Assembly: GCF_024362485.1 (NCBI RefSeq)
Contig: NZ_CP101456.1
Location: 3,906,001 to 3,970,000 of the forward strand
Direction of reading: 5' to 3'
DNA from: Natronobeatus ordinarius
GTDB taxonomy: Archaea; Halobacteriota; Halobacteria; Halobacteriales; Natrialbaceae
Length of the DNA stretch: 64,000 nt
Below are positions 18,677-24,127 of the stretch, piece after piece. The translations under genes and the position numbers were made by a program. The number at the start of each line of letters is the position of its first letter. Positions within the stretch are counted from its first letter, which is position 1. The notes under the pieces are model-generated. The model ran no database searches. It saw only the letters and a program-made list of their open reading frames with translations, and was not told where the DNA came from.

Positions 18677-18812
18677 GTGGGCTCGGGCGGATTTGAACCA
18701 CGGTCGGACGTGCTCGCTTCGCTGCGCGCGACCTCCCTGATTCGAATCCCGCAGTGCCGTCCGCACGGCTCACTGTCGTTCGCCGGCGGGCGGGCGTGAC
18801 GGGATTCGAACC
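18677..18812. repeat. Cluster of tRNA T-arm-like fragments
   Basis: Three T-arm-like motifs lie in about 135 bp: CGGATTTGAACC at 18688-18699, ATTCGAATCC in the opposite orientation at 18740-18749, and GGGATTCGAACC at 18801-18812. The first is preceded by TGGG plus a variable hexamer, as at the 3' end of a tRNA read in reverse, and is followed by GACGTGCTCGCTTCGCTGCG. The layout resembles the segment at 23929-24008. No complete cloverleaf can be drawn. It may be a remnant of integrase-mediated insertion. Confidence 0.5.
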
Positions 18813-21518: not shown

Positions 21519-21812
21519 CTACCGTTCTGGAACGCCGTAATCGACGTGAACGTGTGGCGTACTCGGCGATTCCGGCGCGGGGACGCCGTTCCAGTCGACG
21601 AGGTGCACGTTGGCCATCCGACCGGAGAACCGAAAGCGCTGGACGCCGGTCTCGATCGCTCCTTCCGCCGCTCGATCCGAGACGACGACCGCTTCCTCGA
21701 GCGGGTCGGCGTCGACCATCTCGATCGCACCGTCGACGCTGATCTCGTAGTTCGAAGGAACGCCGCGTCCGATAATCGTGACCCGATTGGGGAGTCCTGC
21801 TTCAGGTGGCAT
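21519..21812 (-). CDS. Conserved haloarchaeal hypothetical protein
   Basis: A 97-residue acidic protein starting MPPEAGLPNRVTIIGRGVPSNYEISVDG. It is predicted to be a soluble beta-rich protein with FRFSGRMANVHLVDWNG in the middle. A minus-strand TTTATAG at 21836-21842 is 27 nt before the ATG, a strong leaderless promoter, which supports a real gene. I do not recognise a characterised family; its short length and lack of a signal suggest a small cytoplasmic protein. Confidence 0.6.
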   Translation of the reverse strand: MPPEAGLPNRVTIIGRGVPSNYEISVDGAIEMVDADPLEEAVVVSDRAAEGAIETGVQRFRFSGRMANVHLVDWNGVPAPESPSTPHVHVDYGVPER

Positions 21813-22648
21813 ACCTCGAAGAGTCGAGTACGGGGCTATAAACTTTCCTGTCGAGAAATCGGTAGGTGCACGAGACAGTGCGCCACGAGCGAATTCACCT
21901 GTTCACGCTATTTAGGGACTCTGGTCCGGTCAGAGGTGGCATCTACGAATTGCTTGGTTATCCGCTCGTTCAATTACTTCAAAGCTGATACCTCTGGCGT
22001 GTTCCGGGACGCTCTCGAGACCTCATCGACGTTCAACCGGTGTCAAAAACGGTTGTGGTCGTCCGGAGTGAGTACGAATTGAGTCCTGGGAGAAGACCGC
22101 TGGTTCAGTTTGACCTCCTCCACGCCCTGAGGACGTGGAATCCGCCCATCGGAGTTCCGCCGAGCGTGGCGTTCGAGGTTCCAACCCGCACTCGAGGGGA
22201 ACCGGCGACACACCGGGGGAACTCTCGTTTCCTCCCTGTATAGGGCTGTGGCCCGGTCAAACAGGCCCCATCGGAACCCGTGTCATCGCCGTGCGAACCA
22301 CCGCTAATTCGCCGCCCCTTGTGGTTCGGGGCCGGCATCTCACTGATTCCGTAGCACTCCGTACTACACGGGACCACAGAAAAACGGTTGCGGTGGGAAA
22401 TCCGACAGCCGCTGCCCGTGGTTGGTGGCCGCTGTGTCCGCTCAACCCCCGCCTGTTCGCTCCTCGGTTCCGACAGGGTGTCGGAATGCCCGTCCCCCAC
22501 GGGAAGGCGGGGGTATGCGCTCGCATCTCTATCACCACCGTACGGATCTCCTGCATCCAGTAAGAGATACCAAGCCTCGCTGTTGCCGCTGTTTGAATAT
22601 TTGAATAGAGCCAAATTATTTGAGCCAGCCGGTGTAAGTGCCAGTACG
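21813..22648. other. Non-coding accessory stretch containing an IS-like relic
   Basis: No haloarchaeal-style gene is visible in about 835 bp. The reading frames that cross it have no homology I recognise. The left 290 bp are AT-richer than the surroundings; the rest holds the IS-like relic at 22103-22520. Confidence 0.5.
22103..22520. mobile_element. Probable IS200/IS605-like relic, no transposase left
   Basis: The left end contains CAGTTTGACCTCCTCCACG and a hairpin TCCACG/CGTGGA (22119-22124 with 22134-22139). It resembles the TTGACCTCCTCC-plus-hairpin end seen at haloarchaeal IS200/IS605 (TnpB) elements. About 370 bp further on, CCCCC (22494-22498) and GGGGG (22509-22513) form a second hairpin. 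The interior encodes neither TnpA nor TnpB, so this would be a short non-autonomous or decayed copy. Exact ends are not determined. Confidence 0.4.
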
Positions 22649-23188
22649 ATGGTTGACTCGACCCAGAGATCGTGGACGGAGAGCATGAGCGGGCGTGAGC
22701 GCGTTCGACACGTTGTAGAGTTGCTGGACGAGCCAACGCCAATACAGGAGATCGCGGACCGCGCAGCCGTTTCGCGCGCAACGGCAGCCGACGAACTCCA
22801 GCGGTTGGAGAGCGACGACTGGGTCACCGAAACGACCATTGATGGCACGAAGGCATATGATCTGAATCCTGTCCGGATGCTCTTTGACGAAGTAACGGAC
22901 TTGATCGAGGAGCACTCGCGCGACGAGTTAGAGAGCCAGCTCACGGAGCTGAAAGCGGAGCAAGAGGAGCTCGCGGCGGAGTACAACGTTGGATCGCTCA
23001 CGGAGTTCCGAGAGCAACTCGCTACGGATGAGTTGTCGGCTGAAGAGCTCAGAGAGCGCCGCAACGTGATCGCTACATGGGAAGCGATCAACACGGAACT
23101 CGGGCTCGTAAAGCACGCGCTCCAGCTGTACGGGGACGTTGTCGAACTCACCTCGTCCCGAACTGACTCGCGTTCGACGTTCGCCTGA
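22649..23188 (+). CDS. DUF7342-type winged-helix protein, putative antitoxin or regulator
   Basis: A 179-residue acidic protein starting MVDSTQRSWTESMSGRERVR. Residues of about 20-80 form a winged-helix DNA-binding pattern (LDEPTPIQEIADRAAVSRATAADELQRLESDDWV). The rest is helical with a glutamate-rich coiled-coil region, matching the DUF7342 family of haloarchaea. Its stop overlaps the start of the next gene by one base (TGATG), so the two are coupled. Base composition is AT-richer than neighbours. The pairing suggests an antitoxin-like autoregulator, but no toxin has been shown for this family to my knowledge. Confidence 0.75.
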   Translation: MVDSTQRSWTESMSGRERVRHVVELLDEPTPIQEIADRAAVSRATAADELQRLESDDWVTETTIDGTKAYDLNPVRMLFDEVTDLIEEHSRDELESQLTELKAEQEELAAEYNVGSLTEFREQLATDELSAEELRERRNVIATWEAINTELGLVKHALQLYGDVVELTSSRTDSRSTFA

Positions 23189-23694
23189 TGGTTGTATTTC
23201 TCGCTAATCGGGCGAACCTGCAGAGCAAACGGCTCCACGACCGTATCCAGCAACGGCTCAGCGCCGACTGTGACAACGTGCGACAACGGCGTGCTGAACC
23301 GCGCGAAGCTGGCTCGTACCGTGTCGTTGGTGACGTGAATCCGCGTCAGTTCCTAAGTGATGACGCATATCCAGTAACGGCTGCTCGCGTCGAGATCGGA
23401 TTCCAACTACGAACGAGCGATCCGTATGAGTACTATTGGATCAACTGGATCGAGCCGGATCGAAGCCTGCTCGTCGGCTGGCATCAAGACGACACTCATC
23501 ACGACCTCGGTCCGGTACACCTGCAAGTGAACGACGGCTCAACGGTCGTCGCTCACGAACAAGCGCAATTCATCGACACGCATCCGCTTGACGTTGTCGA
23601 GCAGCGGATCAAATCGCTTCAGGATGCGATCCTCGCTGTCAACTGGGAGGGGGGACCCATCGGGTTCGATACCTCTTCGTCTCTCTTCGAGTAA
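23188..23694 (+). CDS. TumE/DUF6516-like small protein, putative toxin partner
   Basis: A 168-residue protein. The centre YPVTAARVEIGFQLRTSDPYEYYWINWIEPDRS, followed by GWHQDDTHHDLGPVHLQVNDG and FIDTHPLDVVEQRI, resembles haloarchaeal TumE/DUF6516-like proteins that occur next to winged-helix partners in toxin-antitoxin pairs. It overlaps the upstream DUF7342 gene by one base. The composition is AT-rich for this chromosome. The toxin role is inferred from gene pairing and resemblance, and the N-terminal 50 residues are unlike the family I recall. Confidence 0.6.
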   Translation: MVVFLANRANLQSKRLHDRIQQRLSADCDNVRQRRAEPREAGSYRVVGDVNPRQFLSDDAYPVTAARVEIGFQLRTSDPYEYYWINWIEPDRSLLVGWHQDDTHHDLGPVHLQVNDGSTVVAHEQAQFIDTHPLDVVEQRIKSLQDAILAVNWEGGPIGFDTSSSLFE

Positions 23695-23718
23695 TGTCCA
23701 AGATGCGTTTTGATTTAG

Positions 23719-23883
23719 GAAAGACGATCTCCGACCACCCCAAATTTCATCAACCATACAACCGTTTGGGCTAATTGGAATCCCAAGACGGAGGCGACCC
23801 GCGTTCAGGAAGTGAATCAACTAAACGGCGAAATTGAGGGGGCACCGATTTCCCCAAACGCCGTGAACGGAGCTGTTGAGCGC
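23719..23883 (+). pseudogene. Decayed reading frame next to the tRNA-Ile att-like repeat
   Basis: Between a TAG at 23716 and a TAA at 23884 there is an open frame without a start, encoding a stretch such as TTVWANWNPKTEATRVQEVN and then APISPNAVNGAVER. Beyond the TAA the same frame goes on (RRYRASKKRSEAEW) into the tRNA-like repeat at 23929. This looks like the C-terminal end of a gene broken by stops. I do not recognise the family. An alternative 26-codon ORF at 23694-23774 in another frame seems too short to be meaningful. Confidence 0.3.
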
Positions 23884-23928
23884 TAAAACCGGCGTTACCG
23901 GGCGTCTAAGAAGCGTTCAGAAGCTGAG

Positions 23929-24075
23929 TGGGCCAACTCGGATTTGAACCACCTCGAGACGTTCCGGGTCGCTTCCCGGGCTGCGACTCGCGTAATTCAA
24001 ATCCGAGTTCGATCCGATACTGGTGGCTCGCGATCTTGCTCGCCACCAGAATATGGGCCAACTCGGATTTGAACC
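23929..24075. repeat. att-like direct repeat of the tRNA-Ile 3' end, with inverted T-arm copy
   Basis: A 22-bp sequence beginning TGGGCCAACTCGGATTTG occurs at 23929-23950 and again at 24054-24075; the second copy is the 3' end and T-arm of tRNA-Ile. The ACTCGGATTTGAA inside the first copy (23936-23948) is repeated as an exact inverted copy at 23996-24008. A further hairpin CTGGTGGC/GCCACCAG lies at 24020-24027 and 24042-24049. Duplicated tRNA 3' ends are classic attachment sites of archaeal integrative elements, and here only 125 bp separate them. Confidence 0.6.
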
Positions 24076-24127
24076 GAGAGCCTCCACCTTATCAGAGTGG
24101 CGCTCAACCTGATTGAGCTATTGGCCC
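24054..24127 (-). tRNA. tRNA-Ile (anticodon GAU)
   Basis: Read on the minus strand, the 74-nt sequence folds fully: a 7-bp acceptor GGGCCAA/TTGGCCC, a D arm GCTC...GAGC, an anticodon stem CCACT/GGTGG with loop CTGATAA (anticodon GAT), a T arm CTCGG-TTCAAAT-CCGAG and a discriminator A. No intron is present and CCA is not encoded. It reads isoleucine AUC and AUU codons. Its 3' end is duplicated at 23929-23950. Confidence 0.96.

Follow-up and report, generated by a model that had tools for sequence, protein, structure and literature searches.

Short hairpin units carrying a copy of the tRNA 3′ end downstream of haloarchaeal tRNA genes

The unit behind tRNA-Ile(GAT)

In Natronobeatus ordinarius, a 125-bp unit is placed between the 3′ end of the tRNA-Ile(GAT) gene and its flank. 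The window, which is the whole stretch of DNA analysed here, spans 64,000 nucleotides (positions 3,906,001 to 3,970,000 of contig NZ_CP101456.1). The gene, the unit and its parts are located in it as follows.

24054..24127, minus strand: host gene tRNA-Ile(GAT) (ARAGORN; Rfam RF00005, 69.6 bits)
23929..24053, minus strand: the whole unit of 125 bp, made up of 103 bp of hairpins and a 22-bp tRNA 3′-end copy (G021, L089, has a precise empty site where G000, L108, has the unit)
24020..24049, minus strand: hairpin B, a variable 8-bp stem closed over GA-R-C-loop-G-Y-GA with tandem GA/GA (compensatory stem changes in 23 units)
23996..24009, minus strand: inverted T-arm copy, the 5′ arm of hairpin A (14 bp, 100% complementary to tRNA-Ile nt ~54-67)
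23951..23995, minus strand: palindrome inside hairpin A, of the type GCGAGTCGCAGCCCGG..CCCGGAACGTCTCG (a subtype that tRNA-Ile has in other genera too)
23929..23950, minus strand: direct copy of tRNA-Ile nt 52-73, making the hairpin A 3′ arm and the acceptor 3′ strand (22/22 identity)

The 22-bp sequence TGGGCCAACTCGGATTTGAACC is found twice, at 23929-23950 and 24054-24075, with 125 bp from start to start. The original prediction, drawn from the letters alone, had noted this duplicate of the tRNA-Ile 3′ end 125 bp away, and the copy at 23929-23950 is indeed exact (22/22). The 8-bp hairpin that it saw at 24020-24049 is confirmed as well, with the stem CTGGTGGC...GCCACCAG. Its inverted T-arm copy is present and exact (AACTCGGATTTGAA/TTCAAATCCGAGTT), only that the length is 14 bp at 23996-24009 and not 13 bp at 23996-24008.

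The T-arm pattern is matched 3 times in the 64-kb window against 0.01 expected. As had been proposed, the segment was folded, and tRNA-Ile and unit together as RNA reach z = -8.0. In the MFE fold, the 5′ acceptor strand of the tRNA pairs with the downstream copy.

Two protein genes adjoin the unit, one for a helix-turn-helix protein (DUF7342) and one for a 168-aa protein that fits no known family; they are flank genes and not unit parts. Both lie in a segment of lower GC content (55-60%, window 21700-24100) that has the appearance of a foreign remnant. The 62-aa ORF at 23928-24116 is a spurious one.

Occurrence and anatomy of the units

We located all 46 tRNA genes of the N. ordinarius genome (G000) and compared their flanks, scoring an own-end copy at 19/22 or higher identity to the last 22 nt within 600 bp downstream. 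The original prediction had called for a search beside other tRNA genes and in related genomes, and the structure turned up in both. A copy of the own 3′ end (19-22/22) follows 31 of the 46 genes in 44 units, often in tandem, while 15 genes have no adjacent unit. None of 1800 mismatched tRNA/flank pairs reaches 19/22, and permuted pairing gives a mean of 1.3. Upstream of the tRNA genes, the sole match is a neighbouring tRNA-Asp array. In a haloarchaeon of another family (G397), the own-end copy is found at 15/42 tRNA genes versus 0/1494 mismatched pairs.

A chance repeat is ruled out both by the count in the window (3 versus 0.01 expected) and by the genome-wide one (31/46 versus 0/1800).

The units are single or in tandem arrays with hairpin A at each unit end. 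Their interior is mostly 80-180 bp long, and no recombinase or ORF was found in it among the N. ordinarius units. The tRNA-Ser(GGA) unit has the same layout as the tRNA-Ile unit, and tRNA-Val(TAC) is followed by two identical units in tandem. In a small haloarchaeal genome (G182), five tandem units of three alternating subtypes stand behind tRNA-Ser(TGA) (L299, G182:C1:704900-706500).

Read in the tRNA sense, nt 73 of the tRNA is followed by a short T-rich stretch, hairpin B, ~10-20 nt, the inverted T-arm segment, the variable inner palindrome and the tRNA-end copy, after which the next unit often begins. The outer stem of hairpin A has the tRNA-end copy as one strand and, as its second strand, an inverted segment that matches ~10-12 nt of this tRNA. 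The border of the copy is sharp at nt 53: over the 44 units, identity is 91-100% at nt 53-73, 68% at nt 52 and 39% at nt 51.

The inverted arm, found in 40 of the 44 units, agrees with its own tRNA better than with permuted ones at nt 57 (97.5% versus 61%), nt 59 (100% versus 86%) and nt 62 (80% versus 56%), each with 0/2000 permutations. It has also extra own-tRNA matches over nt 63-69 (0/5000 permutations). The unit arms are tRNA-specific at both sides.

Hairpin B varies in sequence and keeps its pairing. Its stem pairs 2-6 show compensatory changes, and 0-1 of 2000 permutations reach the observed count (23 units). The loop GA-R-C ... G-Y-GA is conserved with the R-Y pair being A-T in 12 and G-C in 9, and its tandem GA/GA is on the tRNA-sense strand.

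The palindrome pattern occurs in 120 of 125 genomes of the same family and in 29/29 genera, with no control matches. In a scan of the phylum, most of the families f1-f9, all within the order Halobacteriales, show it, as do ~2 of 310 other genomes. A unit-specific pattern run over 85,000 species is chiefly haloarchaeal among the matches listed (Natrinema, Natrialba, Haloarcula, Halorubrum, Halorhabdus, Haladaptatus and others), and the scattered single bacterial matches, at least a dozen or so, look like chance.

A search of 2.9 million viral contigs speaks against carriage by viruses, as none of its 55 matches is a haloarchaeal unit and several are phage tRNA or unrelated palindromes. A palindrome that is almost perfect, CATGGATTTGAACC..GGTTCAAATCCATG, recurs in some high-GC viral contigs from genome records (L135, L141, L147, L149 and L165) and has no relation to the units.

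Gain, loss, folding and exchange

The original prediction suggested a comparison with relatives lacking the upstream duplicate, and precise empty sites were obtained in two of them. In G021 (L089), tRNA-Ile is directly joined to the flank that in N. ordinarius (L108) comes after the unit. Within one genus, a unit is present in G111 and G112 and absent from G114 as a precise indel (loci L109 versus L104/L099). These empty sites may be either ancestral or deletions.

Of 30 orthologous tRNA-Ile loci, a unit is present at 13, the copy has decayed at 4, and the other 13 have none, 8 of which keep a B-like remnant. The unit number differs also within one genus. The units come and go as whole units and decay in place.

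The units fold stably with a mean z of -5.4 over 66 distinct ones, 65 of them being below -2. With RNA parameters the fold of the tRNA-sense strand is more stable than that of the antisense by 3.9 kcal/mol, while the shuffles differ by 0.3 the opposite way (p = 6e-9), and with DNA parameters the sense-strand advantage is 1.2 kcal/mol (p = 3e-4); both p-values are optimistic as the units of one genome are mutually related. Since the sense strand folds better than the antisense, selection seems to act on one strand of the unit, be it as RNA or as single-stranded DNA.

The units might be structured RNA trailers of tRNA transcripts with a host function. The tRNA-sense RNA would fold into hairpins B and A, and its repeated 3′ end would vie with that of the tRNA itself, either for RNase Z or for pairing with the 5′ acceptor strand, tuning termination or 3′ processing. 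This main rival agrees with the better fold of the tRNA-sense strand, the tandem GA/GA of hairpin B on that strand, the MFE pairing between the tRNA-Ile 5′ acceptor strand and the copy downstream of it, and the presence of the family across Halobacteriales. However, a trailer of such use is hard to reconcile with 15/46 tRNA genes having no adjacent unit, with tRNA-Ile orthologs that are without it or lost it, with the varied unit number within a genus, and with the common B-hairpin remnants and decayed copies. We regard the trailer as possible but on the unlikely side. The strand asymmetry itself is compatible with RNA and DNA roles alike.

The inner hairpin comes in recurring subtypes, and one of them, GACCGAGGTTCTGCG..CGCAGGTTCTCGG, is found behind several different tRNA genes of N. 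ordinarius. The flanks of the inner hairpin are the T-loop sequence GTTCRAATC that is universal among tRNAs. Between G397 and N. ordinarius, inner hairpins at the same tRNA are somewhat more similar than the others (0.289 versus 0.194; 5/5000 permutations), and at least 20 of the 24 best cross-genome partners belong to a different tRNA. The same subtypes occur at different tRNAs with tRNA-specific arms, so the cores appear to move between or exchange among tRNA loci. The same-tRNA similarity across families implies that the units are also inherited over long times.

The window has an orphan hybrid with no tRNA gene, composed of the following parts.

18678..18812, minus strand: orphan hybrid unit, joined at the T-loop border
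18791-18812: copy of the tRNA-Arg(CCT) 3′ end (21/21)
18739-18752: Arg-type inverted arm
18678-18699: 3′-end copy like that of tRNA-Val(TAC) (20/21)

A second orphan in the genome has a T-arm palindrome and a B-like hairpin with no tRNA gene (L292:1250-1400; G000:C1:2048.6-2048.8 kb), and its end matches none of the tRNAs of N. ordinarius.

Such hybrids could arise in an old and static pattern that was seeded once and in which gene conversion and homologous recombination across the T-loop GTTCRAATC did all the later spreading and homogenising. The T-loop sequence flanking the inner hairpin is common to all tRNAs, the same-tRNA signal persists between families, and in the window orphan the T-loop border is where the Arg(CCT) end and the Arg-type arm meet an end of Val type, all as this account would have it. 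It explains the precise empty sites only if all of them are deletions, though, and gives no account of the initial seeding at most tRNA genes, so we consider it improbable.

Proviruses, a mobile cassette and known systems

The unit array of tRNA-Arg(TCT) is separated from its tRNA by ~20 kb, and that of tRNA-Arg(CCG) by ~19 kb, both being downstream. The intervals, L304 (G000:C1:297900-316900) at tRNA-Arg(TCT) and L305 (G000:C1:1437600-1455700) at tRNA-Arg(CCG), both encode tyrosine integrases along with members of the families phrog_2231 and phrog_1979, and appear to be pleolipovirus-like proviruses of ~19-20 kb. The far-end repeat of the tRNA-Arg(CCG) provirus is 13 bp long, and a published haloarchaeal provirus at a tRNA gene has also an att core of 13 bp (PMC7911831). 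From the 13-bp core and the displaced arrays, it follows that genuine proviruses insert at the tRNA end and displace the array, leaving a footprint unlike the units.

At the right end of the tRNA-Arg(TCT) interval (L304:18300-18400), the tRNA-end copy is preceded by a hairpin of A type, CTGAGGT..ACCTCAG, and this hairpin resembles one subtype of the units. It may have remained from a unit or belong to the end of the provirus itself. For the 330-aa integrase near this provirus end, no relative was found in the viral contigs.

The original prediction had offered a nearly complete excision scar of a normal integrated element. This does not hold, as the conserved hairpins recur at dozens of tRNA genes with their border at nt 53 against a 13-bp att core. 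No kb-sized element with an integrase lies between the unit repeats, whose interior is mostly 80-180 bp without a recombinase.

The duplication of nt 53-73 in 44 units likewise departs from the integrase core of about 13-14 bp here, 13 bp in the local provirus.

In a broader form, the units would be footprints or decoys of site-specific integration, that is, attachment sites left by, or diverting, the integrases that use tRNA 3′ ends. Two ~19-20 kb proviruses with tyrosine integrases do sit between tRNA-Arg(TCT) or tRNA-Arg(CCG) and the displaced arrays, and one of them has at its right end the hairpin like a unit subtype. Yet the att core at tRNA-Arg(CCG) is 13 bp, as in PMC7911831, and not nt 53-73, and a conserved hairpin B, its compensatory changes and a tRNA-matched inverted arm are unexpected of scars. 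We thus take this to be improbable.

We prefer, at a probability of about one half, that the units are haloarchaeal non-coding cassettes that grow in tandem, copy the host tRNA end, and act via a single-strand fold with an enzyme supplied in trans. A non-autonomous unit would enter immediately 3′ of a tRNA gene and duplicate nt 53-73, so that the tRNA stays intact. Units would then multiply in tandem and be lost through recombination between the repeated ends. The mobilising enzyme would recognise the fold of the tRNA-sense strand in a single-stranded DNA or RNA intermediate, in which the inverted arm may serve as a guide pairing with the tRNA end. In favour of the cassette are the own-end copies at 31/46 and 15/42 tRNA genes with none among the mismatched pairs, the sharp border at nt 53, the inverted arm that covaries with its tRNA, the compensatory changes of hairpin B, the precise empty sites and decayed loci at tRNA-Ile orthologs, the tandem arrays, the inner hairpins common to different tRNA genes, and the stable fold with its preference for the sense strand.

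This cassette reading develops the other idea of the original prediction, a tiny mobile unit copying T-arms. The same structure does stand behind most tRNA genes here and in relatives, with precise empty sites, and mobility itself we infer. Neither a mobilising enzyme nor a circular intermediate nor a fresh insertion was observed, which counts against the mobile cassette. The viral contigs, having no unit among their matches, also weigh against it, as do the inner-hairpin similarity that partly follows the tRNA across families and a strand asymmetry that suits RNA equally.

The match between arm and tRNA is accounted for by none of the readings; selection on the stem after arrival would be the simplest, if unproven, answer. 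More specifically, a guide segment in the folded strand could pair with the target T-arm and direct insertion with the nt 53-73 duplication, the arms being renewed at each tRNA so that one core colonises nearly every tRNA gene. We put this forward as an unlikely though conceivable version.

These units make a clade-wide element behind most tRNA genes that is apparently undescribed, and raise the question of how a small DNA or RNA unit follows the sequence of whichever tRNA gene precedes it. If mobile, they would constitute an insertion system of ~100 bp guided by base pairing, and might serve as a model of how tRNA ends give rise to repeat arrays. If host RNA, they would be a tRNA-maturation or termination device new to archaea. 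They also affect annotation through spurious ORFs and the calling of provirus ends in haloarchaea.

Pleolipovirus proviruses and SNJ2-type integrases insert at the tRNA 3′ end, leaving an intact tRNA and a partial copy (PMC8371274, PMC7911831). Unlike the units, these proviruses are 10-20 kb and gene-bearing with an att core of ~13 bp, and no paired hairpins or inverted T-arm are described for them. The small mobile repeats (SMR), PATEs and MITEs of Haloquadratum measure 80-520 bp, encode no transposase and have inverted ends or palindromes, and their mobilisation is in trans or not established; SMR-A elements are reported to target IS605-type elements, and PATEs to make no target duplication (PMC3119063). 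Unlike the units, they have been described neither downstream of tRNA genes nor as carrying a copy of a tRNA end.

The units do share with IS200/IS605-type elements or PATEs the subterminal hairpins at both ends (hairpins B and A). However, a fixed short target without duplication is replaced by a 21-bp own-tRNA copy with a 3′-terminal sequence that varies from tRNA to tRNA, and no Y1 TnpA transposase is found in the unit. A MITE has the terminal inverted repeats of a known transposon, whereas the inverted arm of the unit is internal, follows the tRNA and has no fixed terminus. A known RNA family is ruled out, since the Rfam 15 covariance models give no convincing match other than tRNA in the unit arrays.

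Att scars, IS200/IS605 elements or PATEs, MITEs and Rfam families each differ from the units in at least one defining feature, and no description of the units was found in the openly licensed literature.

Integron cassette arrays are tandem small cassettes with attC, an imperfect palindrome, as the recombination site and its border in a conserved GTT. The units form tandem arrays with the palindromic hairpin A at each end, a putative counterpart of such a site, but have no ORF, use the tRNA T-loop as the fixed site, and carry a palindrome arm that follows the neighbouring tRNA. For PF00589, 11 matches are listed in the N. ordinarius genome.

The closest idea is E. coli tyrT/rtT, where tandem repeats of ~178 bp downstream of a tRNA gene each end in a ~19 bp copy of the tRNA 3′ end. 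The units likewise carry one tRNA 3′-end copy per repeat, downstream and in the same orientation. To our knowledge, rtT has no tRNA-matched inverted arm, and homology of the units to it is not indicated by Rfam, with no match other than tRNA in seven arrays. Moreover, the E. coli rtT is one locus in one species, whereas the units are clade-wide over most tRNA genes.
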